A program made the position numbers and the translations under genes. Below are positions 9,822-50,143 of a DNA stretch of 64,000 nucleotides, piece after piece. Numbering within the stretch: the stretch's first letter is position 1; the number at the start of each line of letters is the position of its first letter. A model generated the notes under the pieces. It ran no database searches. It was not told where the DNA came from and saw only the letters and a list, made by a program, of their open reading frames with translations. This DNA comes from Prevotella sp. (GTDB taxonomy: Bacteria > Bacteroidota > Bacteroidia > Bacteroidales > Bacteroidaceae), in contig JAFRMM010000112.1 in NCBI GenBank assembly GCA_017430675.1, forward strand, positions 1-64,000, in the 5' to 3' direction.

Positions 9822-9928
9822 ACAGATGATACAGATAGAATAGTAACTTTTCTCACGCGTACCGCGCACACACACGCGGTACCCGTGAGGATTCTTAGAA
9901 AACATCTGTATGTATCTGTATGTGTATG
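9822..9928 (-). repeat. Palindromic unit A
   Basis: Core: CTCACGCGTACCGCG (9852-9866) pairs with CGCGGTACCCGTGAG (9875-9889) with one mismatch. Outer arms are built from words of the type ACAGAT/ATCTGT (9822-9838 against 9903-9928) and are imperfectly complementary. Core as in units B, C and D, arms different. Confidence 0.75.
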
Positions 9929-9937
9929 TTTGGTTTT

Positions 9938-10051
9938 GGACAGTGGACAGTAATGGACAGTAAAATCATGAAACTTATCACGCGTACCGCATGTGCGCGC
10001 AGTACCCGTGAGGCTTTTGAGAAAATGACTGTCCATTACTGTCCACTGTCC
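9938..10051 (-). repeat. Palindromic unit B with perfect 24-bp arms
   Basis: 9938-9961 is the exact reverse complement of 10028-10051; each arm consists of three GGACAGT-type words. Inside lies the core TCACGCGTACCGC (9978-9990) facing GTACCCGTGA (10002-10011). Nearly identical to unit C 34.8 kb away, in the same orientation. Confidence 0.85.
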
Positions 10052-10107
10052 ATTGTGACGCCGTCTGATGATCCTTGTTCTTTCCATACCTAATTGTATT
10101 TGCGCGG

Positions 10108-10115
10108 CAAAGATA
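10108..10115 (-). promoter_or_regulatory. Promoter -7 box driving units B and A
   Basis: TATCTTTG on the minus strand, 20 bases before an ATG (10087). The 13-nt motif at 10152-10164 lies upstream, as at units C and D. Confidence 0.6.
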
Positions 10116-10151
10116 CAAAATAATTCGATACGTTTGCCGAAAATCCCAGAG

Positions 10152-10164
10152 TCAGGATAAACCT
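10152..10164 (-). promoter_or_regulatory. Conserved 13-nt upstream motif, copy 1
   Basis: Minus strand AGGTTTATCCTGA, identical at 44974-44986 (minus) and 45144-45156 (plus), each time about 35-45 bases before a TATCTTTG box. Confidence 0.65.
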
Positions 10165-10264: not shown

Positions 10265-10344
10265 TTTCGGGAAATACTTAATGACTATTGCAAAAAAGTC
10301 ATTAAGTAATTTTCCTAAAGCATTGAGTAATTTTCATTTGATAC
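10265..10344. repeat. Dispersed 80-nt repeat with hairpin, copy 1
   Basis: Almost identical to 45024-45103. ACTTAATGACT (10276-10286) pairs with AGTCATTAAGT (10297-10307). The second half enters the 3' end of the SGNH-like gene and encodes its last residues. Confidence 0.8.
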
Positions 10345-17597: not shown

Positions 17598-18743
17598 ATG
17601 GAAACAAAAATAATGGCAACAGCCGAAGCCGCTACCATCGAAGCCACTGCAAAGGTAGGCAAAAATCCTGAATCTGGCAAGATTACGGAAGAGAAAATAA
17701 AAATGCTCATTGAAAAATTGAGTGCTGTAGAAATCTGTAATGTGCCAGACGAACAAGAACCGCCTTCGTTGTTTAACATCAATGGCGTGGAAGTCCTGCC
17801 CAAAGATGCAGTTGGAATCATTGCAGCCCAAAAGAAAAGCGGTAAATCTAACTTTGCTGGATTGCTGATGGCTGCATGTGCTTCACCTAATCATCAAGTT
17901 TTGAATGGTGCAATACGTAGTAATCTTGGGGCGTTAAAGGTGTTGAACATTGACACGGAACAGCCATTGAGGGATGCACGGCGAACACTTCGACGAGTTA
18001 TGAAAACTGCGGGCTATGATTATGGTGAACAATGGAACTTTCACAACATCGTTTCTATCTCTGTGAAGGATATTGAGGAAGCAGACAGAATGACCATTAT
18101 AGAACTGGCCATAAAAAAGTATGAGCCTCAACTGGTGTTCGTTGATGGTATTGCCGATTTGATTGGCAGCATTAACGACGAGAGGGAGGCGAAGGAGGTC
18201 ATGGCTTGGATGGATTATCTTAGTTGTGAGTATGATTGTGCCGTAGTGGGTATGCTTCACCTAAACTTCAATAGTGGAAAGATAGGAGGCTGGGCGGGAA
18301 CTCAGGCCAACAAGAAATTCACGGATAGTTTCATTTTGAAGAAAGACAAGTCTAATGGATTCTTCACAGTAGAACATGAAGGACGTGGTGAAAGTGCTCC
18401 TAACCTACGATTTAAGATTGTGTGTCCGTATGGTCAAAAGGTTGGTTGGTGGGAGACAGTCGATATAAGCAGTATTCCAGAACTTACCCAAGAGGATGCG
18501 GAAGAAATGGAACTACACAATCTTATGGACGCAGCCCCACTTCCTTGCACCAACACACAACTAATCTCATGGCTGATGAACGTGAAGCGATGGACGAGTA
18601 AATCACCTGCCGACAAAGCATTGAAGAAGTGCAAGCAGTATGGCATACTTGACAGCCGCCGTGAAGGTAGGCAGTCTGTTTGGTATAAGGTTTCTTCACC
18701 TGATTCACAGGAGCAGGAACTAAATCTCTCTGACGATGATTAG
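17598..18743 (+). CDS. RecA-fold ATPase (RepA/AAA_25-like)
   Basis: 381 residues. Walker A is AAQKKSGKSN (about 76-85), Walker B is LVFVDGIADLI (about 178-188), and VVGMLHLNF with the GGWAGTQA turn resembles the sensor region of plasmid RepA/DnaB-like hexameric ATPases. The last ~60 residues (TNTQLISWLMNVKRWTSKSP, then KALKKCKQYGILDSRREGRQ) look like a winged helix. In integrative elements of Bacteroidota this protein usually stands beside a primase-like protein, as here, suggesting element replication after excision. Confidence 0.8.
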   Translation: METKIMATAEAATIEATAKVGKNPESGKITEEKIKMLIEKLSAVEICNVPDEQEPPSLFNINGVEVLPKDAVGIIAAQKKSGKSNFAGLLMAACASPNHQVLNGAIRSNLGALKVLNIDTEQPLRDARRTLRRVMKTAGYDYGEQWNFHNIVSISVKDIEEADRMTIIELAIKKYEPQLVFVDGIADLIGSINDEREAKEVMAWMDYLSCEYDCAVVGMLHLNFNSGKIGGWAGTQANKKFTDSFILKKDKSNGFFTVEHEGRGESAPNLRFKIVCPYGQKVGWWETVDISSIPELTQEDAEEMELHNLMDAAPLPCTNTQLISWLMNVKRWTSKSPADKALKKCKQYGILDSRREGRQSVWYKVSSPDSQEQELNLSDDD

Positions 18744-18820
18744 TGTTTATGTATTCTGTTCCCATATAGAATGTAAAACACATAAACACATATCTGTAGA
18801 ACTATATCTATAAATAGTAT

Positions 18821-18852
18821 TTCGCCCGCTACTCTCTATAAGGGCGGGCGAA
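18821..18852 (+). terminator. GC hairpin between ATPase and VirE-N genes
   Basis: TTCGCCCGC (18821-18829) pairs with GCGGGCGAA (18844-18852) around a 14-base loop. No T-run follows, and the next ATG is 20 bases on, so it may act on translation or as a weak terminator. Confidence 0.5.
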
Positions 18853-18871
18853 TACTTAAACACTTATCAAG

Positions 18872-19894
18872 ATGGATAAAATAACAACAAACATATTCCA
18901 ACGGCAAATGACATGGTTAAGTAAGGTTGTTCTGACTTCAGATGAACAGAACGGCAACAATATCATTCCAATGCAAATAGGAGAGTTCCTTGCTCCAGAA
19001 TGGCAAGCACAATATTCCTCAAACATTGAAGCCATAAGAAAATTGTGTTCTACTCTCGAAGACAAGAAGCGTAACCATGACCGCATAGCAACATTGAAGA
19101 AGTCACTCCCTGCTGGAATAATATCTGGAGTGGCAGTTGATGGAATCAGCGAACAGAACATTATCAAGCGTAATAGTGTTATTGCTATAGATATTGATGC
19201 CAAAGACAACCCTGCATTATATGATTGGCAAGCAGTCAAGAATGAAGTCAGCAAAAGCCCATACGTGGCTTATGCCGGGCTTTCTGTTAGTGGACTTGGT
19301 ATCTATGCGCTAATACCCATAGAGGATGCTACAAAGCACAAGCAACACTTCGACGCTATTGTTTCCGACTTCGCTAACACAGTATTTGCTATCATGCAGA
19401 GTCAGGACACGGAACCAACTATACTTCATGGCATACGTCTCGATCAAGCACCAAGTAACATTGCATCTAAAAGGTTTGTGTCATACGACTCCCAACCATA
19501 TTGCAATACGAATGCCCAAGTTTACTCAAAGACGATTGAGCCAGTGAAACTCTATGAGAGGAAATACACCTCATATAGAGGTAGTGGAAATCAGTTCGAT
19601 GTTGAGGCTTTTCTAATCGCTCATAACATATCCTACAATGTGCGTGAGAGACACGGAGGACTTCAATACATTGTTACATGCCCTTGGGTAGAACTTCATA
19701 GCAGTAGAAGTAAGGCTGATAGTGCGGTGTTCGTATATCCAAACGGAAAGCCTGGTTTCAAATGTATGCACGGACATTGTGCCGATAAGCACTGGCAAGA
19801 GTTTCGTGAGTTCTATGAGCCAGACGCATATAGAAGAAGGTCTGCTCAATCATTTTCTCGCTTGTCTGACATTGATTTTCATTCGTTGGCATGA
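18872..19894 (+). CDS. VirE-N/BT4734-like (primase-related) protein
   Basis: 340 residues. The section NSVIAIDIDAKDNP (about 107-120), SPYVAYAGLSVSGLGIYALI and the later LDQAPSNIASKRFVSYD match the VirE_N/BT4734-like domain, related to archaeo-eukaryotic primases; the Asp pair in IDID would bind metal. The C-terminal part holds a Cys/His stretch, FKCMHGHCADKHW (about 303-315), possibly a zinc knuckle. The helicase-like DUF3987 partner often fused or adjacent is absent; the ATPase upstream could take that role. Confidence 0.75.
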   Translation: MDKITTNIFQRQMTWLSKVVLTSDEQNGNNIIPMQIGEFLAPEWQAQYSSNIEAIRKLCSTLEDKKRNHDRIATLKKSLPAGIISGVAVDGISEQNIIKRNSVIAIDIDAKDNPALYDWQAVKNEVSKSPYVAYAGLSVSGLGIYALIPIEDATKHKQHFDAIVSDFANTVFAIMQSQDTEPTILHGIRLDQAPSNIASKRFVSYDSQPYCNTNAQVYSKTIEPVKLYERKYTSYRGSGNQFDVEAFLIAHNISYNVRERHGGLQYIVTCPWVELHSSRSKADSAVFVYPNGKPGFKCMHGHCADKHWQEFREFYEPDAYRRRSAQSFSRLSDIDFHSLA

Positions 19895-20053
19895 GGTGTA
19901 TAGATTGCCCTTCTATGTGGTGCAGGGTGTTCACCTCTAAAAACGAGATATGGACTGGCTACTGCCCACAACTACGGCAAACGGTTAATGGCAATGACCT
20001 ATGTCGTGTAGTAAGACAACAAGATTTATTCAACAACTTTTAATAATGAGATT

Positions 20054-20308
20054 ATGACAAAGAAAAAGAACTTGAGAATTGAGATTGAAAACAATTTCGA
20101 TGTGATTGTTAGTTTACAGGTTTCTCCAACGTCTATTGTCGGTGCAGATGGAGAACGTGTAGGAGAACCAGAAGCCGTGTTGGTGTTAGAAAGCATAGAA
20201 GAAGATAGTTCCTCTATCGCAACATTCACAACAGACCAATTAGGCAAATTCATAAAGCACCTTGAATCTGTTAAATGGATTCTTGACAACTGGCAACCAA
20301 AGAAATAG
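20054..20308 (+). CDS. Small acidic unknown protein
   Basis: 84 residues, acidic in the middle (ESIEEDSSS) with a lysine-rich start. No recognised domain. It ends WILDNWQPKK, echoed by HIIETWQPNE at the end of the next small gene, suggesting a shared C-terminal helix. The 159 bases before it hold nothing recognisable. Confidence 0.55.
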   Translation: MTKKKNLRIEIENNFDVIVSLQVSPTSIVGADGERVGEPEAVLVLESIEEDSSSIATFTTDQLGKFIKHLESVKWILDNWQPKK

Positions 20309-20369
20309 TGTAATGGCTGGCAGATACGATTTAATTCGTGTCTGTTGGCTTTGTTTCAAGTTTAATGTG

Positions 20370-20377
20370 TAACTTTG
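20370..20377 (+). promoter_or_regulatory. Promoter -7 box of the 69-residue gene
   Basis: TAACTTTG followed by CACCC, 20 bases before ATG 20397. Confidence 0.65.
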
Positions 20378-20396
20378 CACCCAAAAGATTAAAACG

Positions 20397-20606
20397 ATGA
20401 GAAAAGAAAGAATGACACTCCAACAAGCACAACAGGCTTGGGATAAGATAGAGCAGAATATCAAGTTGGCTCCGTTCAACGATAAGGGAATCAGTTTGCC
20501 CCATATTGATATGACAAAGATATTCGCTGGTAGGCAATCTATGACATGGCACGCTATTACAGAAGAAGTGCAACATATCATTGAGACATGGCAACCGAAT
20601 GAGTGA
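20397..20606 (+). CDS. Small unknown protein with WQP ending
   Basis: 69 residues, own promoter. Mostly helical by appearance (TLQQAQQAWDKIEQNI). The ending VQHIIETWQPNE resembles that of the 84-residue neighbour. Function unknown; neighbouring recombinase and replication genes suggest an element-maintenance role only by position. Confidence 0.55.
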   Translation: MRKERMTLQQAQQAWDKIEQNIKLAPFNDKGISLPHIDMTKIFAGRQSMTWHAITEEVQHIIETWQPNE

Positions 20607-20721
20607 CCATATTCGACTACATTAACAGAGGGTATAGGCATTATCACGCTTGTACCCTTTGTGTTTTGTTAATATAACATAATAAATACGTCCGTTTGTG
20701 TTGTGTTACGAATTTATTTTG

Positions 20722-20729
20722 TATCTTTG
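20722..20729 (+). promoter_or_regulatory. Serine recombinase promoter -7 box
   Basis: TATCTTTG followed by CAC, 28 bases before ATG 20758; it rules out the longer frame starting at 20698. Confidence 0.65.
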
Positions 20730-20757
20730 CACTATAGAAATCAATAATGCAGAAGAT

Positions 20758-21426
20758 ATGAATAAGTTTATTGCTTACACCCGTGTTTCAACCGCAAAGC
20801 AAGGTTTAGGATTAGAGGCTCAGACTGCCACCATTGAGAACTACGTGAAGAATCAGAATGGCGTTATCATCGGCAACTATTCAGAGAAAGAATCTGGCAA
20901 AGAGACTATCAATCGCCCACAACTGCAAGCAGCAATCAGTCATGCTAAGAAAGATGGTGCTATATTGATAGTAGCAAAACTCGACCGTCTATCCCGTGAC
21001 ATCATCGACATCTTTACTTTGAAAAAGGATGGTGCTCTGACTTTTGAGGTGTGCGACATTGACGCATCGGACACAATGACCCTTGGAATCTTCTCAACAT
21101 TGGCACAGAAAGAACGTGAGTTGATTTCAAAGCGAACGAAAGAAGCATTGGCAGCACGTAAGGCAGAGGGCAAGCAGTTGGGCAATCCTAATGCCGCTGA
21201 AACACTAAGGCAGTTCAATCATCTTGGAGCAGCCAAACGAAAGGCAGCAGCAGACCAAAGCGATGCCAACCGTCACGCCTTTGCAGCCATCAAGTTTATG
21301 CAGGGTAGTTTGAAGCAGAAGGCAGACTACTTGAATGAGAACGGATTTAAGACACCCAAAGGCAATTCTTTTAATCCTATTCAGGTTTCAAGACTTATTC
21401 AACGATACGAGCCAGCAACCAAGTAG
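20758..21426 (+). CDS. Serine recombinase, resolvase/invertase type
   Basis: 222 residues. The N-terminal catalytic domain has YTRVSTAKQ with the nucleophile Ser11, the IVAKLDRLSRD block with its conserved Arg pair, and FSTLAQKERELISKRTKEAL, the E-helix. The C-terminal ~70 residues (LKQKADYLNENGFKTPKGNS) form a small HTH domain. It is a small resolvase or invertase, not a large integrase. It could resolve element dimers or invert a segment; no flanking inverted repeat pair was found to support inversion. Confidence 0.88.
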   Translation: MNKFIAYTRVSTAKQGLGLEAQTATIENYVKNQNGVIIGNYSEKESGKETINRPQLQAAISHAKKDGAILIVAKLDRLSRDIIDIFTLKKDGALTFEVCDIDASDTMTLGIFSTLAQKERELISKRTKEALAARKAEGKQLGNPNAAETLRQFNHLGAAKRKAAADQSDANRHAFAAIKFMQGSLKQKADYLNENGFKTPKGNSFNPIQVSRLIQRYEPATK

Positions 21427-22592: not shown

Positions 22593-22625
22593 TTCTAACA
22601 GCATTATTAACTGATTATGATAATT

Positions 22626-23225
22626 ATGAAAAAAAACATCTTTCTATTTGTTGCAATTACCATTATATGCTATAGTTGCGGCAATTCATCAGTAAGCACA
22701 GCCGCCATGTCAGAAGTGGCAGATTCCGCACAAACCGATACGCTTGCTATGTATATGCAGAAATTGGATAGCATCAACAATAGCGGCAAACTTAGGCATT
22801 TGAACATCTATAAATTGGGCAAAATGAAGTCGATAGAGTTTCAAGTTGTCAGTATAGAATCTGAGTCCGATACTGTGGAATATATCAACCTGCGCAAAGA
22901 TTGTGGTGGGGAATATTACTACGATTGGGAGAATGCCTCACTGCTTGCAGAAGAAGTGAAGTTTTTTGTAACGGCAATAGATACGATTGCTGCAAATTTT
23001 GACAAGACTGTGGCTAATGAAGAGCGTTATGTCTATATCACAAGAGACGATATTCGTCTGTTTTCTGCAAACGAAACAGCAGGGAGTGGTAAGTGGTCAG
23101 CAGATTTATCTGTAGATTATCATAAAAAGAACTCATACATCAATATCAATAAAGATGATTTTTCGGCACTGAAAACCTTATTGCTAAAGGGAGAACAGAA
23201 AATTAAAGAAATACGTAAAAGATGA
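22626..23225 (+). CDS. Lipoprotein of unknown function
   Basis: 199 residues. The signal FLFVAITIICYSCGNSS ends in a lipobox with Cys about residue 18, so it is predicted to be lipid-anchored. Acidic mature region with YMQKLDSINNSGKLRHLNIY and a Lys-rich end (GEQKIKEIRKR). ATG 22626 (MKKN) is preferred over 22617 because it gives a normal n-region. Confidence 0.6.
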   Translation: MKKNIFLFVAITIICYSCGNSSVSTAAMSEVADSAQTDTLAMYMQKLDSINNSGKLRHLNIYKLGKMKSIEFQVVSIESESDTVEYINLRKDCGGEYYYDWENASLLAEEVKFFVTAIDTIAANFDKTVANEERYVYITRDDIRLFSANETAGSGKWSADLSVDYHKKNSYININKDDFSALKTLLLKGEQKIKEIRKR

Positions 23226-23231
23226 AAATGT

Positions 23232-23669
23232 ATGAATATGAAACATTTATTTGCTCTATTAACAGTAATGTTACTATCTTCATGTTCAAATAACAAAGTG
23301 ATAGGCACTTGGGTGTTTGATTCTTCCAATCAATACTCAGACAACTCTGTTTCTATGAATATGGGGGCTGTCTATTATACAACATTTAAATGGAATGGAG
23401 ATTTCGAAAACGTAATGGAGGCTTCTTTTGGTGCTTCAGGAACTACAAGTGAGAGCAAAGGAGGCTCATTAATGAAATCTGTAGTTAAAGGGACTTGGGA
23501 AATGCCTGACGGTTCCAAAATCATTGTACACACAAAAACTGCATCATTGTTCGGTGGCAAAGAAATGGAGAATATTGGAGAAATTGTTTACAACATCATA
23601 TCTATTAACGACGATGAACTTATCGTAATGACAAAGGGGGAGAAGATGAAATATAAAAGAAAAGATTGA
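23232..23669 (+). CDS. Lipocalin-like lipoprotein
   Basis: 145 residues. Signal HLFALLTVMLLSSCSNN with lipobox Cys. The mature part begins KVIGTWVFD, then alternating strands and VVKGTWEMPDGSKIIVHT and ELIVMTKGEKMKYKRKD, the pattern of small lipocalin-like or DUF-type Bacteroidota lipoproteins. Seven bases after the previous stop. Fold assignment is by pattern only. Confidence 0.55.
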   Translation: MNMKHLFALLTVMLLSSCSNNKVIGTWVFDSSNQYSDNSVSMNMGAVYYTTFKWNGDFENVMEASFGASGTTSESKGGSLMKSVVKGTWEMPDGSKIIVHTKTASLFGGKEMENIGEIVYNIISINDDELIVMTKGEKMKYKRKD

Positions 23670-23731
23670 GTTGTGTAGTGGAAATGATCTACGGTTTCTT
23701 TATAAAGTGAATAATTATAATATGTAAGAAT

Positions 23732-24373
23732 ATGGAATTTATCGGAGCCATCATTTTTAGCATCATCTTTCTTGGAGTGTGGTACGGCGTACAAGATTAC
23801 TTTGAGCAGAAAAGTAACGAGAAGTATGCCAAACAAGAATTAGAGAGATGGGAGGCAAATGAAAAAAAGAAAAAGAAAAGTAAAGGGGCGTTAGATTCTC
23901 TTTATGGCAAATGTACTAGGGCATTATGCTTGGATGAAAACAATAACTATACAGTTCGAGTTTTTGAGAGTTCTCAAACTATAGTTATTGGAGATAAGCC
24001 CTATAAATTTGATGAAATAACAGGATGTGAGGCTTCAACAATGCCGAAGGAAAGTGTTCCGGTTTCAGCCATTACTACTACTGACAAGGGCAATATGGCA
24101 GTTAGAGCAGCCGTCGGTGGTGCCTTACTTGGTCCTGTAGGTGCATTGGCAGGTGCTGTAACGGCTAAAAAAAACACTAAGATTGACAAAGAAGAAGAGG
24201 CAAGGCGTTTCGAACAGGCAATGCATGACAATATGTACAGAACTGGTGGTGTTACTATGTACGTGAAGTCTATATCAAAGCCTACCGTATTTATACCTTG
24301 CTTTAAGAGTGACGAGAAAGAATTATGTGCAGTAATTAATGCCATTGTTGCAGCAACACAGTCTAACAAATAA
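23732..24373 (+). CDS. Membrane-anchored protein with glycine zipper
   Basis: 213 residues. An N-terminal helix (IGAIIFSIIFLGVWYGV) is followed by a charged lysine-rich region, a small strand-rich domain (about 60-110: TVRVFESSQTIVIGDKPYKF) and a glycine-zipper helix pair (AAVGGALLGPVGALAGAVTA, about 128-147), which often inserts in or crosses membranes. The tail GGVTMYVKSISKPTVFIPC resembles strand-rich PH-like modules. No function known to me. Confidence 0.55.
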   Translation: MEFIGAIIFSIIFLGVWYGVQDYFEQKSNEKYAKQELERWEANEKKKKKSKGALDSLYGKCTRALCLDENNNYTVRVFESSQTIVIGDKPYKFDEITGCEASTMPKESVPVSAITTTDKGNMAVRAAVGGALLGPVGALAGAVTAKKNTKIDKEEEARRFEQAMHDNMYRTGGVTMYVKSISKPTVFIPCFKSDEKELCAVINAIVAATQSNK

Positions 24374-24385
24374 ATGCTATCAATT

Positions 24386-25156
24386 ATGAAAAAAGTATTA
24401 TGGATAATTTGTTGCGTGACATTGTTCTCATGCAATAGTAAACCCCAAAAGAGTTGGGAGGAATTACGTCAGGAAGAACAAGAGTATTATGACAGACAAA
24501 AGGCAAATGAGGATTCAATTAAGAGAGCAAAACACAATGAGATAGAAAAGAAATTGTCCGTGACGGATGGTGGTCATATCTTGGGCGATATTGTGTTGGG
24601 TATGTCAAAAAAAGAATATGAATTGGCCTTGCAGAAGTTTGACAAGGAAGTTGGTCGTGTCGATATTGAAGGGCAAACATTTGGGGTAGTTAGGAGTTAT
24701 GATTATCCTGTATTTAAAGATGGTAAACTTGTTAAGGTGGCTTTAGTATCTGGATATTCAACTTCAATGAGACTGCCAGATAAAAACGGAAGTGCTTCAG
24801 ATATAGAAATCAACGACCCAGGTAAAAAGATAAAAAGCAATATGTATAAACATTTATATGCCAAATATGGTGAAGCCGATTCTATATCAAGAAACAAAGA
24901 GCCCACAAATGTTAGCAACTTTGATTATGCTCGGTGGGAATACTCTTTCAAAATTATTGAAATAAAAGAGGAACTATCATCCGTAAGTCAAGGATATGGA
25001 GGAAGAATTGAGGATTATCGTCTTATATATATTGTATATAGTGACCCAAAAACATTTAAGAGAGACGAGTTTGTTGCTGATAGCATAATGCAAGAGCGGA
25101 TAAGGTTCCAGAATGAACAAAAGAAGAAAGAAAAGGCATATTCAGAGCAGTTATAA
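24386..25156 (+). CDS. Lipoprotein of unknown function
   Basis: 256 residues. Signal VLWIICCVTLFSCNSK with lipobox Cys; a charged helical stretch (SWEELRQEEQEYYDRQKANE) follows, then a globular part with GDIVLGMSKKEYELALQKF and YKHLYAKYGEADS, and a lysine-rich coiled end. ATG 24386 (MKKV) chosen over 24374. Last gene of the cassette, followed by a terminator-like hairpin. Confidence 0.6.
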   Translation: MKKVLWIICCVTLFSCNSKPQKSWEELRQEEQEYYDRQKANEDSIKRAKHNEIEKKLSVTDGGHILGDIVLGMSKKEYELALQKFDKEVGRVDIEGQTFGVVRSYDYPVFKDGKLVKVALVSGYSTSMRLPDKNGSASDIEINDPGKKIKSNMYKHLYAKYGEADSISRNKEPTNVSNFDYARWEYSFKIIEIKEELSSVSQGYGGRIEDYRLIYIVYSDPKTFKRDEFVADSIMQERIRFQNEQKKKEKAYSEQL

Positions 25157-25245
25157 TTCTAAAAAAGCATTTTAACACCAAATAAAAGAAAAAGCCAAAA
25201 GAAAACAGAAAGAGTTACCGAGAATTGTCTTCTTTGTTGTTCAAT

Positions 25246-25268
25246 GGGTGTAGCACTACGTTACACCC
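25246..25268 (+). terminator. Hairpin after the exported-protein cassette
   Basis: GGGTGTA (25246-25252) pairs with TACACCC (25262-25268) and is followed by TTTGTTGT. Probably ends the cassette transcript. Confidence 0.55.
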
Positions 25269-25349
25269 TTTGTTGTGCAATCTTTGTAATCTTTGTTAAT
25301 GAATGGGTATTTTCTGAGACAGGAATGCGCATTTGTCAAAAATTTGCAC

Positions 25350-25357
25350 TATCTTTG
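25350..25357 (+). promoter_or_regulatory. Promoter -7 box of the 115-residue gene
   Basis: TATCTTTG followed by CAAC, 38 bases before ATG 25396. Confidence 0.65.
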
Positions 25358-25395
25358 CAACATAGAAGTTTGTTTTCAGGATAATTCTCTAAGAT

Positions 25396-25743
25396 ATGGC
25401 AAGACCAGATAACCCAAGATTTCCGCATACTTGCGAGATTTTTCATGAGGAATATTGTGACGATCCTTTGGAAGATGAATACGTGGAAGTAACCATCTAT
25501 AATGGCTGCTGTAGAAGTAGTGCGAAATTTACTACTAATGACACTGGAGAAGTAATAACTTCTACTCGCAGATTGTCTATACCTTTGAATCTGAAAGATT
25601 GGAAGCAATTATGCGTTTCACCAAAAGTAGGTGATAGAGTTGTCGTAGATAAGGACGAAGTGGCAATGGAATACGGAAGGATTATAGACTTTCTTCCAAA
25701 CAATTTAGGCACGACAATCCTATATAAGTATATAAGGAACTAA
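25396..25743 (+). CDS. Unknown protein, faintly like phage head-tail joining proteins
   Basis: 115 residues, no signal. Begins RFPHTCEIFHEEYCDDP and ends GRIIDFLPNNLGTTILYKYI; the middle has KVGDRVVVDKDEVAMEYG. Short strand-rich proteins with a GD-V strand and a PNN-G-T end occur among head-tail joining proteins, but no capsid, portal or terminase is near, so this is a weak suggestion. Confidence 0.45.
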   Translation: MARPDNPRFPHTCEIFHEEYCDDPLEDEYVEVTIYNGCCRSSAKFTTNDTGEVITSTRRLSIPLNLKDWKQLCVSPKVGDRVVVDKDEVAMEYGRIIDFLPNNLGTTILYKYIRN

Positions 25744-25757
25744 AAAAAGCATATACC

Positions 25758-26123
25758 ATGATTCTACGAAACAAGCGAATAAAAAAGCAGGCTAACGAGA
25801 TAATGCTATCAGTCTGCTATGGCATACCAGACGTAAAGAAGATGGTGCAGTGGATTTTCTATCATTATCACCACAACTGCGACTGGCTTTATCAGGAACA
25901 ACTTGCAACGCCACACAGGGAATTAGAGTTGATAGAAATGTTTGAGTATGACCCAAAATGCTTTGGAAACTACAGCGAGAAGTGGGCAAGACCTCTTAGT
26001 GAATGGGCATTTAATGCCTGTTTACGGGAGAAATATATTATCAAGTCTGCAACATTGGAAAATCAGTTCTATTTTTCGGAAAAGTGCATCATCAAGAAGC
26101 GAGGTAGGCCAAGAAAAGAATGA
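25758..26123 (+). CDS. Small basic unknown protein
   Basis: 121 residues, 14 bases after the previous gene. Lysine-rich at both ends, aromatic-rich middle (MVQWIFYHYHHNCDWLYQ), C-terminus IIKKRGRPRKE, an AT-hook-like GRP core. DNA binding is possible but inferred only from that short tail. Confidence 0.5.
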   Translation: MILRNKRIKKQANEIMLSVCYGIPDVKKMVQWIFYHYHHNCDWLYQEQLATPHRELELIEMFEYDPKCFGNYSEKWARPLSEWAFNACLREKYIIKSATLENQFYFSEKCIIKKRGRPRKE

Positions 26124-26211
26124 CTACACGCGCACGCGCGATAAAGAGTGACTTGTAACAAAGAAAGTTCAAAAATAAATAGAAAAAGCACATAATCCGA
26201 AAATATTTATG

Positions 26212-26268
26212 TATCTTTGCACCGAAGAAATTTGCTGACCGCTACTGCCCGTGATGGGTGGGGCGGTC
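26212..26268 (+). ncRNA. Promoter followed by a short GC hairpin (candidate small RNA)
   Basis: TATCTTTG at 26212-26219, then GACCGC (26237-26242) pairing with GCGGTC (26263-26268) with an inner CCC/GGG pairing, followed by ATTGTTTTATG. No ATG-led gene follows before the next promoter at 26333. A short terminated transcript is one reading; the rest of the 26124-26362 gap shows an alternating CACGCGCACGCGCG stretch. Confidence 0.4.
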
Positions 26269-26332
26269 ATTGTTTTATGCTAAATTCTTCTAAAAATACA
26301 CATATAAGTGTACAACCAAAGAAAAATATTAT

Positions 26333-26340
26333 TATCTTTG
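26333..26340 (+). promoter_or_regulatory. Promoter -7 box of the toxin-antitoxin-like pair
   Basis: TATCTTTG followed by TACC, 22 bases before ATG 26363. Confidence 0.65.
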
Positions 26341-26362
26341 TACCGACAAAAGCAAAGAAAAT

Positions 26363-26839
26363 ATGAGTGAAGCAAGGATTACTTCTATTGGTCAGACAAA
26401 TGCCGTTGGACTATTCTCTATTACTTTCGAAGGTGATAGCCTGACGGAATTTCGCAAATTCATTGAGAAGTTCAAGGATGATGCTGTGCGCAGCAAGGAG
26501 TTGAACGCCATACTTTCCGAGATTGGTAGAATAGAGCAGAACGGCGCATTAGAACGCTATTTCCGCTATGAGGGAAAGATGAGCGACCATGTCATGGCTC
26601 TTCCTGCCTTGCGTAGTGGACTTAGGCTATATTGCTTGCGAATGTCTGACAGCGTGCTTATTGTGGGAAATGGTGGTGTAAAGAACACCAAGACTTACGA
26701 GCAAGACCCTGAATTGAACGGCTATGTGATAAACTTGCAGAAACTTGACGCTTTGCTGCGTGAAGATATACGCAAGGGTATTGTAGTGATTGAGGCTACT
26801 GAGATTTATGGTGCTGACGATAAAACGTTTGATATATGA
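26363..26839 (+). CDS. Putative toxin of a type II toxin-antitoxin pair
   Basis: 158 residues, no signal. DSLTEFRKFIEKFKDD, YEGKMSDHVMALPALRSGLR and LRMSDSVLIVGNGGVKNTKT resemble a RelE/HigB-like toxin version I associate with Bacteroidota, where the toxin gene precedes an XRE-type antitoxin. The next gene starts within its last codons (ATGA overlap), typical for such pairs. Family is recognised by arrangement and general pattern more than by catalytic residues. Confidence 0.65.
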   Translation: MSEARITSIGQTNAVGLFSITFEGDSLTEFRKFIEKFKDDAVRSKELNAILSEIGRIEQNGALERYFRYEGKMSDHVMALPALRSGLRLYCLRMSDSVLIVGNGGVKNTKTYEQDPELNGYVINLQKLDALLREDIRKGIVVIEATEIYGADDKTFDI

Positions 26840-44478: not shown

Positions 44479-44488
44479 CTTTTTGATG

Positions 44489-44561
44489 TCGGGATTACTG
44501 GACTCGAACCAGCGACCTCGCGCCCCCCAGACGTGTGCGCTACCAACTGCGCTAAATCCCG
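44489..44561 (-). tRNA. tRNA-Pro (anticodon GGG)
   Basis: 73 bases on the minus strand. Acceptor CGGGATT pairs with AATCCCG; D arm GCGC/GCGC; anticodon loop CTGGGGG gives GGG; T arm GCTGG TTCGAGT CCAGT; discriminator A. One A-C mispair lies in the anticodon stem (CACGT/GCGCG). No encoded CCA. Confidence 0.92.
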
Positions 44562-44605
44562 AACATTCTTGCTTGGCACCGACCTGTTTTTGTCGAATGC
44601 GGGTG

Positions 44606-44613
44606 CAAAGGTA
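44606..44613 (-). promoter_or_regulatory. tRNA-Pro promoter -7 box
   Basis: TACCTTTG on the minus strand followed by CACCCGC; the tRNA-Lys promoter has the same start. Confidence 0.65.
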
Positions 44614-44760
44614 CGTACTTTTTACGAAACCACCAAATTTTCCGCCAACTTTTTTTAAAATATGTGCTACACAAGTTGATGCAGACATCATCATTGCCTT
44701 TGTAGGAATTGACAACGATCACGGGGACGCTGTGACCCCCACCCTTCTGTATTTAGTTTT

Positions 44761-44874
44761 GGACAGTGGACAGTAATGGACAGTAAAATTACAAGACTTA
44801 TCACGCGTACCGCATGCGCGCGCAGTACCCGTGAGGCTTTTAAGGAAACTACTGTCCATTACTGTCCACTGTCC
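44761..44874 (-). repeat. Palindromic unit C with perfect 24-bp arms
   Basis: 44761-44784 is the exact reverse complement of 44851-44874. Arms and core are almost identical to unit B. On the minus strand a 63-codon frame begins at 44910 (MERTKIIRR), matching unit B's MERTRIIRR start. Confidence 0.85.
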
Positions 44875-44929
44875 ATTGAGAAGCCGTCTGATGATCTTCG
44901 TTCTTTCCATACCTGATATGATTTGGCGG

Positions 44930-44937
44930 CAAAGATA
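44930..44937 (-). promoter_or_regulatory. Promoter -7 box driving unit C
   Basis: TATCTTTG on the minus strand, 19 bases before the ATG at 44910; motif copy at 44974-44986 upstream. Confidence 0.6.
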
Positions 44938-44973
44938 CAAAATAAAACAATACGTTTGCCGGAAATCCCAGAG

Positions 44974-44986
44974 TCAGGATAAACCT
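44974..44986 (-). promoter_or_regulatory. Conserved 13-nt upstream motif, copy 2
   Basis: Minus strand AGGTTTATCCTGA, identical to copies 1 and 3. Confidence 0.65.
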
Positions 44987-45023
44987 AAAATTTGTGGTTG
45001 CCCCCCGCCCAACGGGCTGTGGC

Positions 45024-45103
45024 TTTCGGGAAATACTCAATGACTATTGCAAAATAGTCATTGAGTAATTTTCCTAAAGCATTGAGTAATTTTCATTTAA
45101 TAC
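45024..45103. repeat. Dispersed 80-nt repeat with hairpin, copy 2
   Basis: TCAATGACTAT (45037-45047) pairs with ATAGTCATTGA (45054-45064). Compared with copy 1 at 10265, both sides of one base pair changed together. Confidence 0.8.
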
Positions 45104-45143
45104 TTCTCGAAAAGTATCACTTGTTTGCCAGGGCCTGAAATAT

Positions 45144-45156
45144 AGGTTTATCCTGA
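45144..45156 (+). promoter_or_regulatory. Conserved 13-nt upstream motif, copy 3
   Basis: AGGTTTATCCTGA on the plus strand, 36 bases before the unit D promoter. Confidence 0.65.
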
Positions 45157-45192
45157 GTTTGGACTTTTGGGGAAATGAAAGAAAATAATTCG

Positions 45193-45200
45193 TATCTTTG
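45193..45200 (+). promoter_or_regulatory. Promoter -7 box driving unit D
   Basis: TATCTTTG followed by CAGCC, 18 bases before ATG 45219. Confidence 0.6.
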
Positions 45201-45218
45201 CAGCCAAATCAAAGAAGA

Positions 45219-45329
45219 ATGAACGATATGACGCATTTGACACATTTGACAAATTATTTCAAAGAATCCTCACGCGTATCGCGCACGCACGGTACGCGTG
45301 AGAAAGTACTATATGTGGCGAGTCCATAA
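45219..45329 (+). repeat. Palindromic unit D with a 36-codon frame
   Basis: Left arm of TTGACA words (MTHLTHLTN in the 36-codon frame), then CTCACGCGTATC (45269-45280) facing GGTACGCGTGAG (45291-45302), the core shared with units A-C. The frame ends at TAA 45329. In the +1 frame the text continues with IRAPVAIYEENPWLWDLL to a stop near 45391, so a decayed or frameshifted longer gene is possible. Confidence 0.6.
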
Positions 45330-45694
45330 GGGCTCCTGTTGCCATTTATGAGGAAAACCCATGGCTGTGGGATCTATTGTCGGATAATTAGAAAGCAATT
45401 CCTTGATGTGGATTGTGAACCCAAAAACGTGAGTCCTTTCGAAGTCATGCCATATTGCTTTTGCCTGTTCAGATGAACGTACCTCTCATGCTGATAGCCT
45501 CTTACGTTGATTAAGATAGTCCCTTGCAGTTGTTCGGATAATCCCTTATTAGTAGTACAAATAGTTTGTGCTTTTGGTATAAATGTTTTCTGAAAGTTCC
45601 AAATAATTTTGAGGAAAACTTGTGTGTTTAGTAAAAAAAGGATTAATTATCATAATTTTGAGGGGGCTTATTTTGTCAATCCGAATATTATGCT

Positions 45695-45702
45695 TACTTT
45701 TG
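45695..45702 (+). promoter_or_regulatory. aroA promoter -7 box
   Basis: TACTTTTG followed by CAATC, 26 bases before ATG 45729. Confidence 0.6.
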
Positions 45703-45728
45703 CAATCGTAATTGTGTAATGAATACGA

Positions 45729-46985
45729 ATGGAACAATATAGACTGACGGCACCCAGTAGGCTGGATGCCACTATCAATCTGCCGGCTTCGAAGAGCATA
45801 TCCAACCGTGCCCTGATCATCTACGCGCTCAGTGGAGGCAGGAACCTGCCCCAGAACCTCAGCGACTGCGACGATACCGAGGTGATTATCGAGGCCCTGC
45901 GCTATATGCCGAAAGAGATTAACATCAAGGCGGCAGGTACGGCTATGCGCTTCATGACCGCCTACCTCAGTGTGATGCGCGGCACCCATGTCCTGACGGG
46001 GACGGAGCGGATGAAGCACCGTCCGATAGGGATCCTGGTGGATGCGCTCAAGAAACTGGGGGCGGATATCGAATATGTGGGTGAGGCGGGCTATCCCCCT
46101 CTCAGGATCTCAGGAAAGATGCTTGAAGGCGGACTGCTGGAGATACCAGGCAACGTGAGTTCGCAGTATATCTCCGCCCTGCTGATGATCGGGCCGATGC
46201 TCAGGGAGGGCATGACGCTGAGGCTCCTGGATGACATCATCTCCAGACCCTATATAGACCTGACGCTGTGGACGATGAACGAGTTTGGCGCAGAGGCGGA
46301 ATGGACGTCGGCAGACACCATCAACGTGAAGCCAAAGCCGTATAAGGACCGCAGTTACTTCATCGAGAACGACTGGAGCGGTGCCAGTTACTGGTATGAG
46401 ATAGTGGCGCTGAGTGACGACCCGGAGTCGGAAATCAGACTGACAGGACTGATGGACGGTTCAAAGCAGGGTGACTCCATCACACGCTATATCTTCAGCC
46501 TGTTGGGCGTCAAGACGAAGTTCGACTCGAAGAAGGCTGGCGTCCCACAGACCGTAACACTGAAGAAGAACGGGCGCTGCGTGCCTCGTCTGGAGTACGA
46601 CTTCGTGAGTTGTCCTGACCTGGCGCAGACCTTCGTCGTGGTTTGTGCAGCGAAGAATATCCCGTTCCACTTCACAGGACTATCAACCCTGAAGATCAAG
46701 GAGACGGACCGTATCGAGGCCCTGAAGACGGAGATGCGGAAACTGGGTTATGTGCTGAAAGAAAAGAACGGCAGTGAACTGCTATGGGACGGTGAGCGCT
46801 GCGAGCCCTCGCCTGAACAGGGCATCGACACCTACGAGGACCATCGTATGGCCCTGGCCTTTGCGCCATACGTGCTGAGGCAAGACGGACTGTTGATCAA
46901 CAACCCCCACGTGGTGTCCAAGTCGTATCCGCATTTCTGGGACGACCTGCGCTTTGCTGGGTTTGGAGTAGAAAAGGTAAAATAA
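45729..46985 (+). CDS. aroA: 3-phosphoshikimate 1-carboxyvinyltransferase (EPSP synthase)
   Basis: 418 residues, two-domain repeat fold. NLPASKSISNRALIIYAL binds shikimate-3-phosphate, AAGTAMRFMTAYL is the short form of the NAGTAxR motif, and IKETDRIEALKTEMRKLG plus DTYEDHRMALAFA carry catalytic residues. Sixth step of aromatic amino-acid synthesis, on PEP. Shorter than E. coli AroA (427), normal for the phylum. Seven bases precede the next GTG start. Confidence 0.93.
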   Translation: MEQYRLTAPSRLDATINLPASKSISNRALIIYALSGGRNLPQNLSDCDDTEVIIEALRYMPKEINIKAAGTAMRFMTAYLSVMRGTHVLTGTERMKHRPIGILVDALKKLGADIEYVGEAGYPPLRISGKMLEGGLLEIPGNVSSQYISALLMIGPMLREGMTLRLLDDIISRPYIDLTLWTMNEFGAEAEWTSADTINVKPKPYKDRSYFIENDWSGASYWYEIVALSDDPESEIRLTGLMDGSKQGDSITRYIFSLLGVKTKFDSKKAGVPQTVTLKKNGRCVPRLEYDFVSCPDLAQTFVVVCAAKNIPFHFTGLSTLKIKETDRIEALKTEMRKLGYVLKEKNGSELLWDGERCEPSPEQGIDTYEDHRMALAFAPYVLRQDGLLINNPHVVSKSYPHFWDDLRFAGFGVEKVK

Positions 46986-46992
46986 TAAATAG

Positions 46993-47190
46993 GTGACTTT
47001 TGCGTTTGTATGTATAGGGATGCTGGTGGCATTGGGCGTGATTGCCCTGGTGGCCAACCGTTTCGACAAGGGTGAGGACACCATCGTTACTGGTCACGAC
47101 TGTTCGACCTGCACAGCCGCCGACGAGGGGGAATGCAAGATCCACTGTCTCCTGGAAGAGAAGAAAAAGAAAGCGAAGCATGACGCATAA
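46993..47190 (+). CDS. Small membrane protein with Cys cluster
   Basis: 65 residues, GTG start. One N-terminal helix (FVCIGMLVALGVIALVA) and then GHDCSTCTAADEGECKIHCL, four cysteines in a CxxC...C...C order suggesting metal or disulfide binding. Lysine-rich end overlaps the start of porW by 11 bases. Function unknown; similar small Cys-rich membrane proteins exist, including some linked to iron transport, but nothing here confirms it. Confidence 0.6.
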   Translation: MTFAFVCIGMLVALGVIALVANRFDKGEDTIVTGHDCSTCTAADEGECKIHCLLEEKKKKAKHDA

Positions 47191-50143
47191 GGGCAGACAT
47201 ACCGTCATTTTTTTCCTTTGCACGATGGGTCTCATCGCGCTTCTGACAGCCTGCTCGACCAAGAAGAACACGGCCAACACCCGTTGGTGGCACTCCTTCA
47301 ATGCCCGCTATAACACCTATTTCAATGGCTCTCAGGCTTTTATCGACGGTAATCTGGAGAAGGAGAAGGGCAACAAGGACAACTATACGGAACTGATCCC
47401 CCTGTATATGGTGGGCAACAAGCAGAGCCGTGATCTCGGCAAGGGCCAGTATGACCGTGCCATCGAGAAGAGTGAGAAGGCCATCCGTCTGCACAGCATC
47501 AAGGCGAAGCCAGAATGGAAAAGCAGCAAGGCGAAGACGGCCAAGGACCGCGAGTGGCTGGGGCGCAGGGAGTATAACCCCTTCCTGTGGAGGGCGTGGA
47601 TGCTGTTGGGTAAGGCACAGTTCCAGAAAGGTGCCTTCGACGAGGCTGCCGCCACCTTCTCTTATATGACGCGCCTCTACCAGACACAGCCCATGCAGAG
47701 CGGACTGGCCAGGGCATGGCTCGCCAAATGCTATACGGAACTCGGCTGGATGTACGATGCGGAGGACGTGATCCGCAACATGAGCCGTGACTCGATGGAT
47801 TTCCGTGCCGTGAAGGACTGGGATTATACCTACGCCGACTACTATATCCGCAGCGGTGAGTACGAGAAGGCCGTACCCTACCTGCGGAAAGCCATCAGCC
47901 ACGAACGGCGCAAGGTGCAGAGGGCCAGGGAGTGGTTCCTCATGGGACAGATAGAAAGTCTGCTAGGGCATCGGGAACAGGCTTACAGGGCCTACAGGAA
48001 GGTGGTGGCCTGCCATCCGCCCTACGAACTGGAGTTCAACGCCCGTATCGCCCAGACAGAAGTGATGGCAGAGGGTAATGCCAAGCAGATGATCGGCCGT
48101 CTGAAGCGCATGGCTGCTGATGACAATAACGCGGAGTATCTCGACCAGGTATATTACGCCATCGGCAATATCCACCTGATGCAGAAAGACACGTTGCTGG
48201 CCATTGCCGCCTATGAGAAAGGCAACGAGAAATCGGTGAGGAACGGTATCGAGAAGGGTGTGCTTCTGCTGACCCTGGGAAACCTGTACTGGCAGCGGGA
48301 ACAGTTCAACGATGCCCAGCGCTGCTATGGTGAGGCCATCGGACTGCTTGACAAGGAGCGCCCTGACTACGAGGAACTGTCAGACCGTTCGAAGGTCCTC
48401 GACGAACTGGTGCCCTATACGGATGCCATCCACCTGCAGGACTCCCTGCTGGAACTCTCCACCATGCCTGAGGCAGAGATGCTGGCGGCCATCGACAGGG
48501 TCATCGATGCCCTGAAGAAGAAGGAGAAAGAAGAGCGCGATGCACAACGGATCGCGGAGGTGGAACAGGCGCAGCAGGAGCGACAGGCAATGGGCAGCCA
48601 ACCCATGAACAACCAGCCCGCAGCCCCCGTGGCACAGCAGCAGGGCAACGGACAGTGGTACTTCTATAATCCCGTGGTCGTGAACCAGGGAAAGACGGCT
48701 TTCCAACGGCTCTGGGGAAAGCGTGAGAACAAGGACAACTGGCAGCGTATCAACCAGACGGTGGTCTCCATGCCAGACCAGGAGGAAGAGACGGAGATGC
48801 AGGGCGATCAGGACGATCTGCCCATGGCAGAAGACTCCCTGGGGGTGGAGATGCCAGACAGCATCGGTGCACCAGCAGAGCCGGACTCCATCTCCAACGA
48901 TCCCCATGAACGGGAATACTATCTGGCGCAGATCCCCTTCTCCGAAGATCAGAAAGCCGCCTGTCATGAGATCATCAAAGACGGCCTGTTCCATGCTGGC
49001 ATCATCTTCAAGGACAAACTCAACAACCTGTCCCTCAGCGAGAAAAACCTGACGCGACTGACGGGGAACTACAACGATTACGAGTATATGGACGAGGCGT
49101 GGTATCACCTGTTCCTGCTCTATTCCCTCCAAGGCAGGAGACAGGAGGCGGATAATTGTCTCATCCACCTGAAGAGCGAGCATCCGGAGAGTGACTGGAC
49201 GATCCTGCTGACCAATCCTTACTTCGAGGAGAATGCCCGTTTCGGTGAACAGATCGAGGACTCGCTATACGCTGCCACATACGAGGCCTTCAAGAACGAC
49301 AATCACGACATGGTGAGAGCCAACGCCCGACTGTCGGCGGAGCGCTTCCCCCTGGGAGAGAACAGGGCGAAGTTTCTCTTCATCGATGGTCTCAGCCAGT
49401 TGAATGACGGCGATGGCGACGGCTGCATAGAGCGCCTGAAGGAAGTGGTGGAGAAATATCCTGACAGTGAGGTGACGGAACTGGCTGGCATGATCATCAA
49501 GGGTGTGCAGGAAGGGCGCAGGCTCCACGGTGGCAAGTTCGACATCGGCGATATCTGGTCACGGCGCGACATTACCCTCTCCGCCGACTCTACGGGTACT
49601 ATCGAACTCAGTGCAGAGCGCAATGACAACTTCATGTTCATCCTGGCCTATGAGCCTGACTCCGTGAACGAGAACCAACTGCTGTTTGAGTTGGCACGCT
49701 ATAACTTCACCAACTTCCTCGTGCGCAACTTCGACATCCAGTTGGACGAGGACAACGGGCTTCACAGGATGCGTGTCAGCGGGTTCCTCAGTTACGACGA
49801 GGCTCTGCAATATGCGCGTCAGTTGTATGCTGACAATGCGATGGCAGACTGGCTGAAGCCCTGTCGCAGCCTGATTATCGGCGAGAAGAACCTGGCATTG
49901 ATAGGCACGAGGTTCAGTTACGAGGATTATCAGCAGTTCTACGAGGATACTTTCGTGCCGATGGAGGTCAGTAAACAACAGTTGCTGACGGAGCCTAGCG
50001 ACGTGGAGATTCTCGACCCAGAGGACTTCGGAACTACTGAGGAAGAATCGTCGGAGAACGGGGAGGACGACGAGGATGATGATTTGTTCCCCACTCAGCA
50101 GCCGAAGGTGCAGGACTTCGACTTCGGAGATGACTTCTGGTAA
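47180..50143 (+). CDS. porW: Type IX secretion lipoprotein PorW/SprE-like
   Basis: 987 residues. Lipoprotein signal LCTMGLIALLTACSTKK; then NTRWWHSFNARYNTYFNGSQ, the conserved beginning of SprE/PorW. The middle is a long TPR solenoid (about 100-420, for example FQKGAFDEAAATFSYMTRLY), a charged glutamine-rich linker (about 440-560), a second helical repeat part, and an acidic tail ending FDFGDDFW. It links outer-membrane and motor parts of the T9SS. porX follows after 26 bases. ATG 47180 is chosen as the lipobox needs it. Confidence 0.87.
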   Translation: MTHKGRHTVIFFLCTMGLIALLTACSTKKNTANTRWWHSFNARYNTYFNGSQAFIDGNLEKEKGNKDNYTELIPLYMVGNKQSRDLGKGQYDRAIEKSEKAIRLHSIKAKPEWKSSKAKTAKDREWLGRREYNPFLWRAWMLLGKAQFQKGAFDEAAATFSYMTRLYQTQPMQSGLARAWLAKCYTELGWMYDAEDVIRNMSRDSMDFRAVKDWDYTYADYYIRSGEYEKAVPYLRKAISHERRKVQRAREWFLMGQIESLLGHREQAYRAYRKVVACHPPYELEFNARIAQTEVMAEGNAKQMIGRLKRMAADDNNAEYLDQVYYAIGNIHLMQKDTLLAIAAYEKGNEKSVRNGIEKGVLLLTLGNLYWQREQFNDAQRCYGEAIGLLDKERPDYEELSDRSKVLDELVPYTDAIHLQDSLLELSTMPEAEMLAAIDRVIDALKKKEKEERDAQRIAEVEQAQQERQAMGSQPMNNQPAAPVAQQQGNGQWYFYNPVVVNQGKTAFQRLWGKRENKDNWQRINQTVVSMPDQEEETEMQGDQDDLPMAEDSLGVEMPDSIGAPAEPDSISNDPHEREYYLAQIPFSEDQKAACHEIIKDGLFHAGIIFKDKLNNLSLSEKNLTRLTGNYNDYEYMDEAWYHLFLLYSLQGRRQEADNCLIHLKSEHPESDWTILLTNPYFEENARFGEQIEDSLYAATYEAFKNDNHDMVRANARLSAERFPLGENRAKFLFIDGLSQLNDGDGDGCIERLKEVVEKYPDSEVTELAGMIIKGVQEGRRLHGGKFDIGDIWSRRDITLSADSTGTIELSAERNDNFMFILAYEPDSVNENQLLFELARYNFTNFLVRNFDIQLDEDNGLHRMRVSGFLSYDEALQYARQLYADNAMADWLKPCRSLIIGEKNLALIGTRFSYEDYQQFYEDTFVPMEVSKQQLLTEPSDVEILDPEDFGTTEEESSENGEDDEDDDLFPTQQPKVQDFDFGDDFW

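Follow-up and report, generated by a model that had tools for sequence, protein, structure and literature searches.

The window, i.e. the whole 64-kb stretch of Prevotella DNA that was analysed, contains four sites with the core CACGCGTA..TACnCGTGAG, a pattern that was found 0 times in 100 dinucleotide shuffles. The four sites are units of one design, the core being accompanied by arms made of short repeated words. Unit A (9822-9930, minus strand; core 9854-9889) is an orphan origin-like palindrome with ACAGAT words in imperfect arms. Two other palindromes of this kind have GGACAGT words: unit B (9937-10055, minus strand; core 9979-10012), which sits within a 54-nt arm pair with an overall complementarity of 78%, and unit C (44760-44875, minus strand; core 44802-44835), with perfect arms of 26 bp. 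Unit D (45219-45302, plus strand) consists of a left arm of TTTGAC words and a core (45271-45302), without a right arm; both arms are present in the copies of L005, L009, and L011. These results agree with an earlier note on this DNA, which had described four core-plus-word-arm units with long arms in B and C, imperfect arms in A, and the left arm alone in D. On RNA folding, the outer helix comprised 25 bp for unit B and 27 bp for unit C, and the z-scores were -6.3, -12.3, -12.7, and -2.1 for A, B, C, and D, respectively. None of the four units matched an Rfam family at the gathering threshold. To the right of unit D, positions 45449-45583 are 82% similar to positions 536-670 of L195 (genome G003), so that a different repeat may be present at the site of the missing right arm.

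The window has three copies of the 13-nt motif AGGTTTATCCTGA, which was absent from 100 shuffles. Every copy is followed downstream by TATCTTTGC (3/3), which we take to be the Bacteroidales-type -7 promoter word and which is not special on its own (12 occurrences in the window). The motif and the predicted promoter word, found by motif and word searches, lie at 10152-10164 and 10107-10115 (minus strand) upstream of B, the latter serving as the putative promoter word of both B and A; at 44974-44986 and 44929-44937 (minus strand) upstream of C; and at 45144-45156 and 45193-45201 (plus strand) upstream of D. The presence of these two words ahead of the units had also been pointed out in the earlier note. 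Because of their orientation, we assigned A, B, and C to the minus strand, with B before A, and D to the plus strand. The leader upstream of B is conserved in the copies of genome G001. Units C and D diverge from a central X region (45031-45094), and a region of the same kind is present upstream of B's leader (10272-10335), where it forms a second word palindrome with ATTACTNAATG words that aligns with the X regions of C and L008; neither was given a strand. Both X regions of the window contain further palindromic words of the ATTACTCAATG type, while those between the divergent leaders of the G001 copies are of the AAGGAGTCCTTAATT type.

The exact core pattern was found in 15 stretches of the genome collection, and 11 of these had the word-arm design when read singly (L003, L004, L005, and L007-L014, titled Prevotella, Prevotellaceae or, for L012, Bacteroidales). 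The other four (L001, L002, L006, and L015) looked like chance matches on individual reading. The type of arm differed between copies (GGACAGT, ACAGAT, TTTGAC, TACAG, and GGGTGGGGGTGG) and complementarity was kept. Thus, the constant core with both arms changing together, proposed from the window, was also observed in other Prevotellaceae, in further copies whose arms had changed and remained complementary. In genome G001 (RUG12989), there were 8 core sites, and the leader was matched 15 times, with five strong matches. Among 399 genomes of the family, the core pattern was matched in only 2, G001 and G134, the latter apparently by chance; this low number is due to the narrowness of the exact core. 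When the C-X-D stretch was compared with 150 genomes of the genus, 71 were matched, and outside G001 the matches listed were short and mostly over the promoter word, so that we attach no meaning to this number.

The divergent C-X-D stretch (44670-45605, no strand assigned) is not common to the tRNA-aroA interval of two relatives. In G001, this interval matched positions 44487-44669 and 45606-47500 of the window (94% and 85.5%, respectively), with 820 nt of other sequence between them. In G005, the match extended up to 44654 and resumed at 45728, with only 85 nt between the flanks. Comparison of these intervals suggests an insertion in the lineage of the window as a simpler reading than loss in the relatives. 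The dispersed copies and the orthologous sites without the element are in line with the mobile-repeat half of the proposal in the earlier note; its other half, an undescribed RNA family selected for pairing, was not supported, as explained below.

In the copies that could be aligned, the common leader was followed by units whose order was constant, with GACAGT first, then ACAGAT, then GGGTGG. All three are present in L094, in which the ACAGAT unit has no core, subsets or remnants are present in L009 and L036, and the window has B followed by A. The divergent TTTGAC unit is found in L009, in L011/L093, and, as unit D, in the window. L040 contains a chimeric unit (1395-1540), in which a left arm of the TTTGAC type is joined at the core to a right arm of the CCACCC type, indicating that arms are exchangeable at this point.

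The same palindrome was found at the end of the VapE/VirE gene (PF05272) in L010 and L012. This confirmed the link with VirE-type genes of Bacteroidales that the earlier note had suggested, the palindrome being located at the stop codon of these genes. L052, L053, and L055 have it in the interval separating VirE from DUF4248, and at the place of L055, as seen in L003, HU-HIG and amidase genes come next. DUF4248 was not matched in the genomes of L010 (G004) and L012 (G007), so this neighbour is not constant. A Parabacteroides locus (L287) with genes for a BT4734-type protein, DUF4248, and a DNA-binding protein also has a palindrome between VirE and DUF4248, with GGCGCAAAA words flanking an AT-rich centre that contains a small hairpin. 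Next to the DUF4248 gene of L080 (about 1348-1500), two word palindromes follow each other, of the GTACATGCATG and then the AACGTTAACG type.

PF05272 genes at large were found in 34 of 81 genomes of one family. In a set of loci drawn from part of the matches listed, 91 of 102 3' windows could be used, the others having less than 200 nt downstream or a duplicate VirE end. An inverted repeat with a score of at least 14 was present in 35 of these 91 non-redundant windows (56 were below 14); the corresponding rates were 8.4% for the control windows (n = 606) and 0.4% for the shuffles (n = 910). The VirE-linked words varied widely, e.g. GCGGCGAT in L116, TATGGAGTTA in L154, GGCGGACAA in L139, and GTGACGA in L190. 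Downstream of its palindrome, L116 contains a segment (2880-2937) that is 80% identical to positions 9855-9919 of unit A. Beyond the close family described below, such a palindrome was not found in Cellulophaga phage phi38:2 or in a VapE locus of Prevotella nigrescens (scores of 10.8 and 8.8, respectively).

Members of the close VirE family (E <= 1e-60) were present in 52 of 200 genomes of one genus. From the 75 matches listed, 49 were taken as new loci; 60 loci were read and 54 were used, four being dropped because they were under 40% identity and two because they were duplicates. A score of at least 14 was reached in 47 of the 54 loci, and 49 had the CGTAC..GTACG core. Relative to the VirE stop codon, the median start of the palindrome was -23.5 nt, a position immediately 3' of rep; in complete loci it overlapped or abutted this codon, and in many the left arm was coding. 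The arms consisted of tandem words of 7-10 nt, which were present in 40 of the 54 right arms and mirrored on the left. The GC fraction of the core was 0.65 (41 loci) and the AT fraction of the arm-core spacer 0.58 (39 loci); AT-rich centres were seen by eye in L116 and L287. In a collection of viral contigs, there was no match for the core or for three arm types, and none of the 7 stretches given by a scan for an L012-like VirE was confirmed, so that this collection gave no support to a phage origin of the close VirE family. Phage and plasmid records (469 and 67, respectively) contained VapE relatives that are more distant, none of them reaching 60% identity. In the family of G007, the L012 protein was found in its own genome only (1/119). 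The helicase matched structure 7pds ('PriRep1 with dsDNA'), a VapE-family Rep that, from the title of the entry, we take to be the Rep of SaPI1. Among the papers listed in searches of an open-licence library, none dealt with such a palindrome at VirE genes.

An element with a different helicase is also apparent in the window, where it seems to be integrated at 17598-21426. It encodes an AAA_25 helicase (17598-18743), a BT4734-like_N protein (18872-19894), and a resolvase (20698-21426), and at the stop codon of the helicase gene there is a palindrome (18737-18869) with arms of about 20 nt and a score of 16.7; 8.4% of the controls reached 14. The layout is that of the proposed VirE origins, with a different helicase family. 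Seven plus-strand ORFs of 115-260 aa with no Pfam match at 0.01 occupy 22617-26839.

In the close family, the words followed the C-terminal domain (CTD) of the adjacent helicase. The similarity of the right (non-coding) arms correlated with that of the CTDs when the helicase part was taken into account (partial Mantel r of 0.28, 0/999 permutations, 52 of the 54 loci, L245 and L249 having no CTD anchor), as compared to 0.11 for the helicase part given the CTD. The partner arm of the same locus ranked best in only 28 of 54 loci and among the top three in 46; in several loci, including L216, L225, L252, and L254, the best inverted repeat was formed by the core and not by the arms, so that the comparison of arms is weakened; L258 is a truncated locus, and its helicase comparison is unreliable. 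The words of L212 and L210 differ, as do their CTDs (similarity of 0.36), whereas their helicases are close (0.94). The protein database contained similar pairs: identity between P0001 and P0075 is 337 of 342 positions up to the CTD and 31 of 68 within it, and the corresponding figures for P0069 and P0134 are 339/350 and 30/68. Among the matches listed, 190 of 205 proteins could be split into helicase and CTD, and the protein tail, which is encoded by the left arm, agreed with the CTD type (two types) in 186 of these 190.

The two arms were complementary at 91-92% of word positions and at 59-68% of spacer positions, the number of spacer positions being small (79); this was calculated from 47 of the 54 loci, since the others had too few word positions. 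Such a contrast points to inverted protein sites rather than to an RNA stem. A first structure model of the protein was poor (pLDDT 59), and we used one based on a deeper alignment (pLDDT 74, pTM 0.67), in which the CTD (351-440; mean pLDDT of 68-89 per ten-residue block) was predicted to have a winged-helix topology, with a helix at 396-405 and strands at 410-413 and 416-423. The residues that differ between CTD types (RRVKYQG, ERRTFRN, and ERVRSHG) mapped to the wing in this model. We infer from these data that the CTD binds the arm words as iterons. Since the CTD and the palindrome are adjacent, the association between them could partly be due to linkage.

A Pfam scan of 19 window proteins revealed no VapE helicase, and no rep gene adjoins the orphan units. 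We compared 16 orphan arms with 208 VirE-linked arms, the baseline being the best of 100 shuffled queries. The promoter-proximal arm of unit A scored 54 with the right arm of L211 (shuffled maximum of 26), and its other arm was in slight excess (29 versus 26). The arms of unit B scored 55-56 with L012 and L210 (shuffled maxima of 29 and 24), and those of unit C 60 and 55 with L012 (26). Unit D gave a weak match, its left arm scoring 32 with L244 (27). For the orphans of other genomes, the scores were 44 versus 26 for the L004 arm, 37 versus 26 for the left arm of L011, and, weakly, 32 versus 27 for the L013 arm, and the L094 arm exceeded the shuffled maximum by 1. The right arm of L011, both arms of L040, the L007 arm, and the GGGTGG arm had no match above the shuffled maximum among the 208 VirE-linked arms. 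By sequence similarity, the origin-like units of the window thus belong to two CTD types for which the cognates are clear, and probably to a third. By eye, the orphan words were not recognised at any of the six VirE genes of G001, though a GTGACGGAT arm is present in L192, and the window leaders showed no visible likeness to the VirE 5' ends with which they were compared. In L051, a palindrome and DUF4248 come after a VirE-like start, and the helicase is missing, which suggests how the orphans may have arisen, namely through VirE loci losing their helicase gene.

Three other explanations were considered for the palindromes. A structured RNA or a mobile family of RNA hairpins, with arms selected to pair in a transcript initiated at the TATCTTTG promoter, would account for the very stable predicted hairpins of B and C and for the promoter word and conserved leader upstream of the units. 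We rejected it mainly because the spacers do not share the complementarity of the words, as would be expected if the whole stem had to pair. Furthermore, the words track the CTD of the adjacent protein, many complete loci have a left arm that is part of the coding sequence, and Rfam gave no match at the gathering threshold, all of which makes an RNA family very unlikely.

We also think it highly improbable that the units are REP- or MITE-like repeats, moved by a transposase and with arms equalised by quasi-palindrome template switching. The dispersed copies, the orthologous sites without the element, and the perfect arms of unit C would fit with this, but it leaves unexplained the location at the VirE stop codon, the tandem words, and the link between CTD and words, and mismatches persist in the spacers. 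Template switching may nevertheless contribute to the symmetry of the arms alongside a rep-ori function. An operator, i.e. a palindrome bound by VirE, DUF4248, or HU-HIG for the control of transcription rather than for replication, would be consistent with the position between VirE and DUF4248 in L052, L053, L055, and the Parabacteroides locus and with the DNA binding implied by the family name of HU-HIG. The facts that the word type follows the CTD of VirE and that such sites serve as origins for related Reps make this very unlikely.

Taking together the anatomy of the units, their location at VirE genes, the association of words with CTDs, the module swaps, and the dispersion of the copies, we consider it probable that the units are replication origins belonging to VapE/VirE-type Rep helicases, each parted from its rep gene. 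The palindromes would act as origins with two or three tandem iterons (the words), a short spacer, the GC-rich palindromic CGTAC..GTACG core, a second spacer, and the same iterons inverted. The CTD would bind the iterons on both sides through its putative winged helix, and helicases would be loaded from both sides on a centre that is melted or extruded. Both arms would change together while the core stays because a given CTD would require its matching word and because CTD and origin would move as one cassette. The elements of the window would be orphan copies with a short promoter-leader and without helicase, inserted at sites that relatives have without them. They would hold more than one type of origin, GGACAGT and ACAGAT in tandem or GGACAGT and TTTGAC divergently.

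A more specific possibility, which we regard as rather doubtful, is that the orphans are arrays assembled in a fixed order (GGACAGT/GACAGT, ACAGAT, GGGTGG, and a divergent TTTGAC unit) behind a common promoter-leader from several incompatible VapE replicons, and that they serve as decoys titrating the Rep helicases of elements that enter the cell, thus recording earlier invaders, or are parasites replicated by several different helpers. Arm exchange at the core, as in L040, would then recombine specificities. The orphans may also simply be relics. Interpreting the units as orphan origins turns an unexplained repeat into a testable specificity code between Rep and origin. The dozens of natural pairs of CTD and words, including near-identical helicases with swapped CTDs, should make the recognition rule readable. 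It also provides a proposed origin for Bacteroidales VirE loci, some of which adjoin DUF4248, HU-HIG, and amidase genes, and the presence of stand-alone arrays that combine several origin-like types at a distance from helicase genes bears on the competition between mobile replicons.

The alpha protein of phage P4 is the initiating helicase of a satellite with an iteron-type origin. The VirE loci would resemble this system in both respects and differ from it by the fusion of the P4 helicase to a primase. REP/RAYT systems also consist of short dispersed palindromes; in the units described here, the arms change from copy to copy and follow the helicase CTD. In PLE, satellites of Vibrio cholerae, replication starts at repetitive iterons through an element-encoded RepA (PMC7145576). 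The likeness is that of a satellite with its own initiator and repetitive iterons, but the initiator is a RepA_N protein and not a VapE helicase, and PLE is not known to have a family of arms changing with a CTD. The closest system is that of SaPI/PICI, in which the origin lies immediately 3' of rep and has two sets of iterons (PMC6092414). The VirE loci share with it the VapE-family Rep, the 3' position, and the two sets of words. They appear to differ from it by a conserved GC-rich palindrome (CGTAC..GTACG) at the centre instead of an AT-rich region, apart from the AT-rich centres seen in L116 and L287, and they differ by inverted, near-mirror iterons, by the adjoining DUF4248, HU-HIG, and amidase genes of some loci, and by the gathering of several origin types in the orphan copies (PMC6092414). 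We therefore read the arms as the iterons of a PICI-like rep-ori module, without classifying the elements as whole PICIs. The kind of system would thus be already known, and the surprise is the multi-origin orphan arrays.
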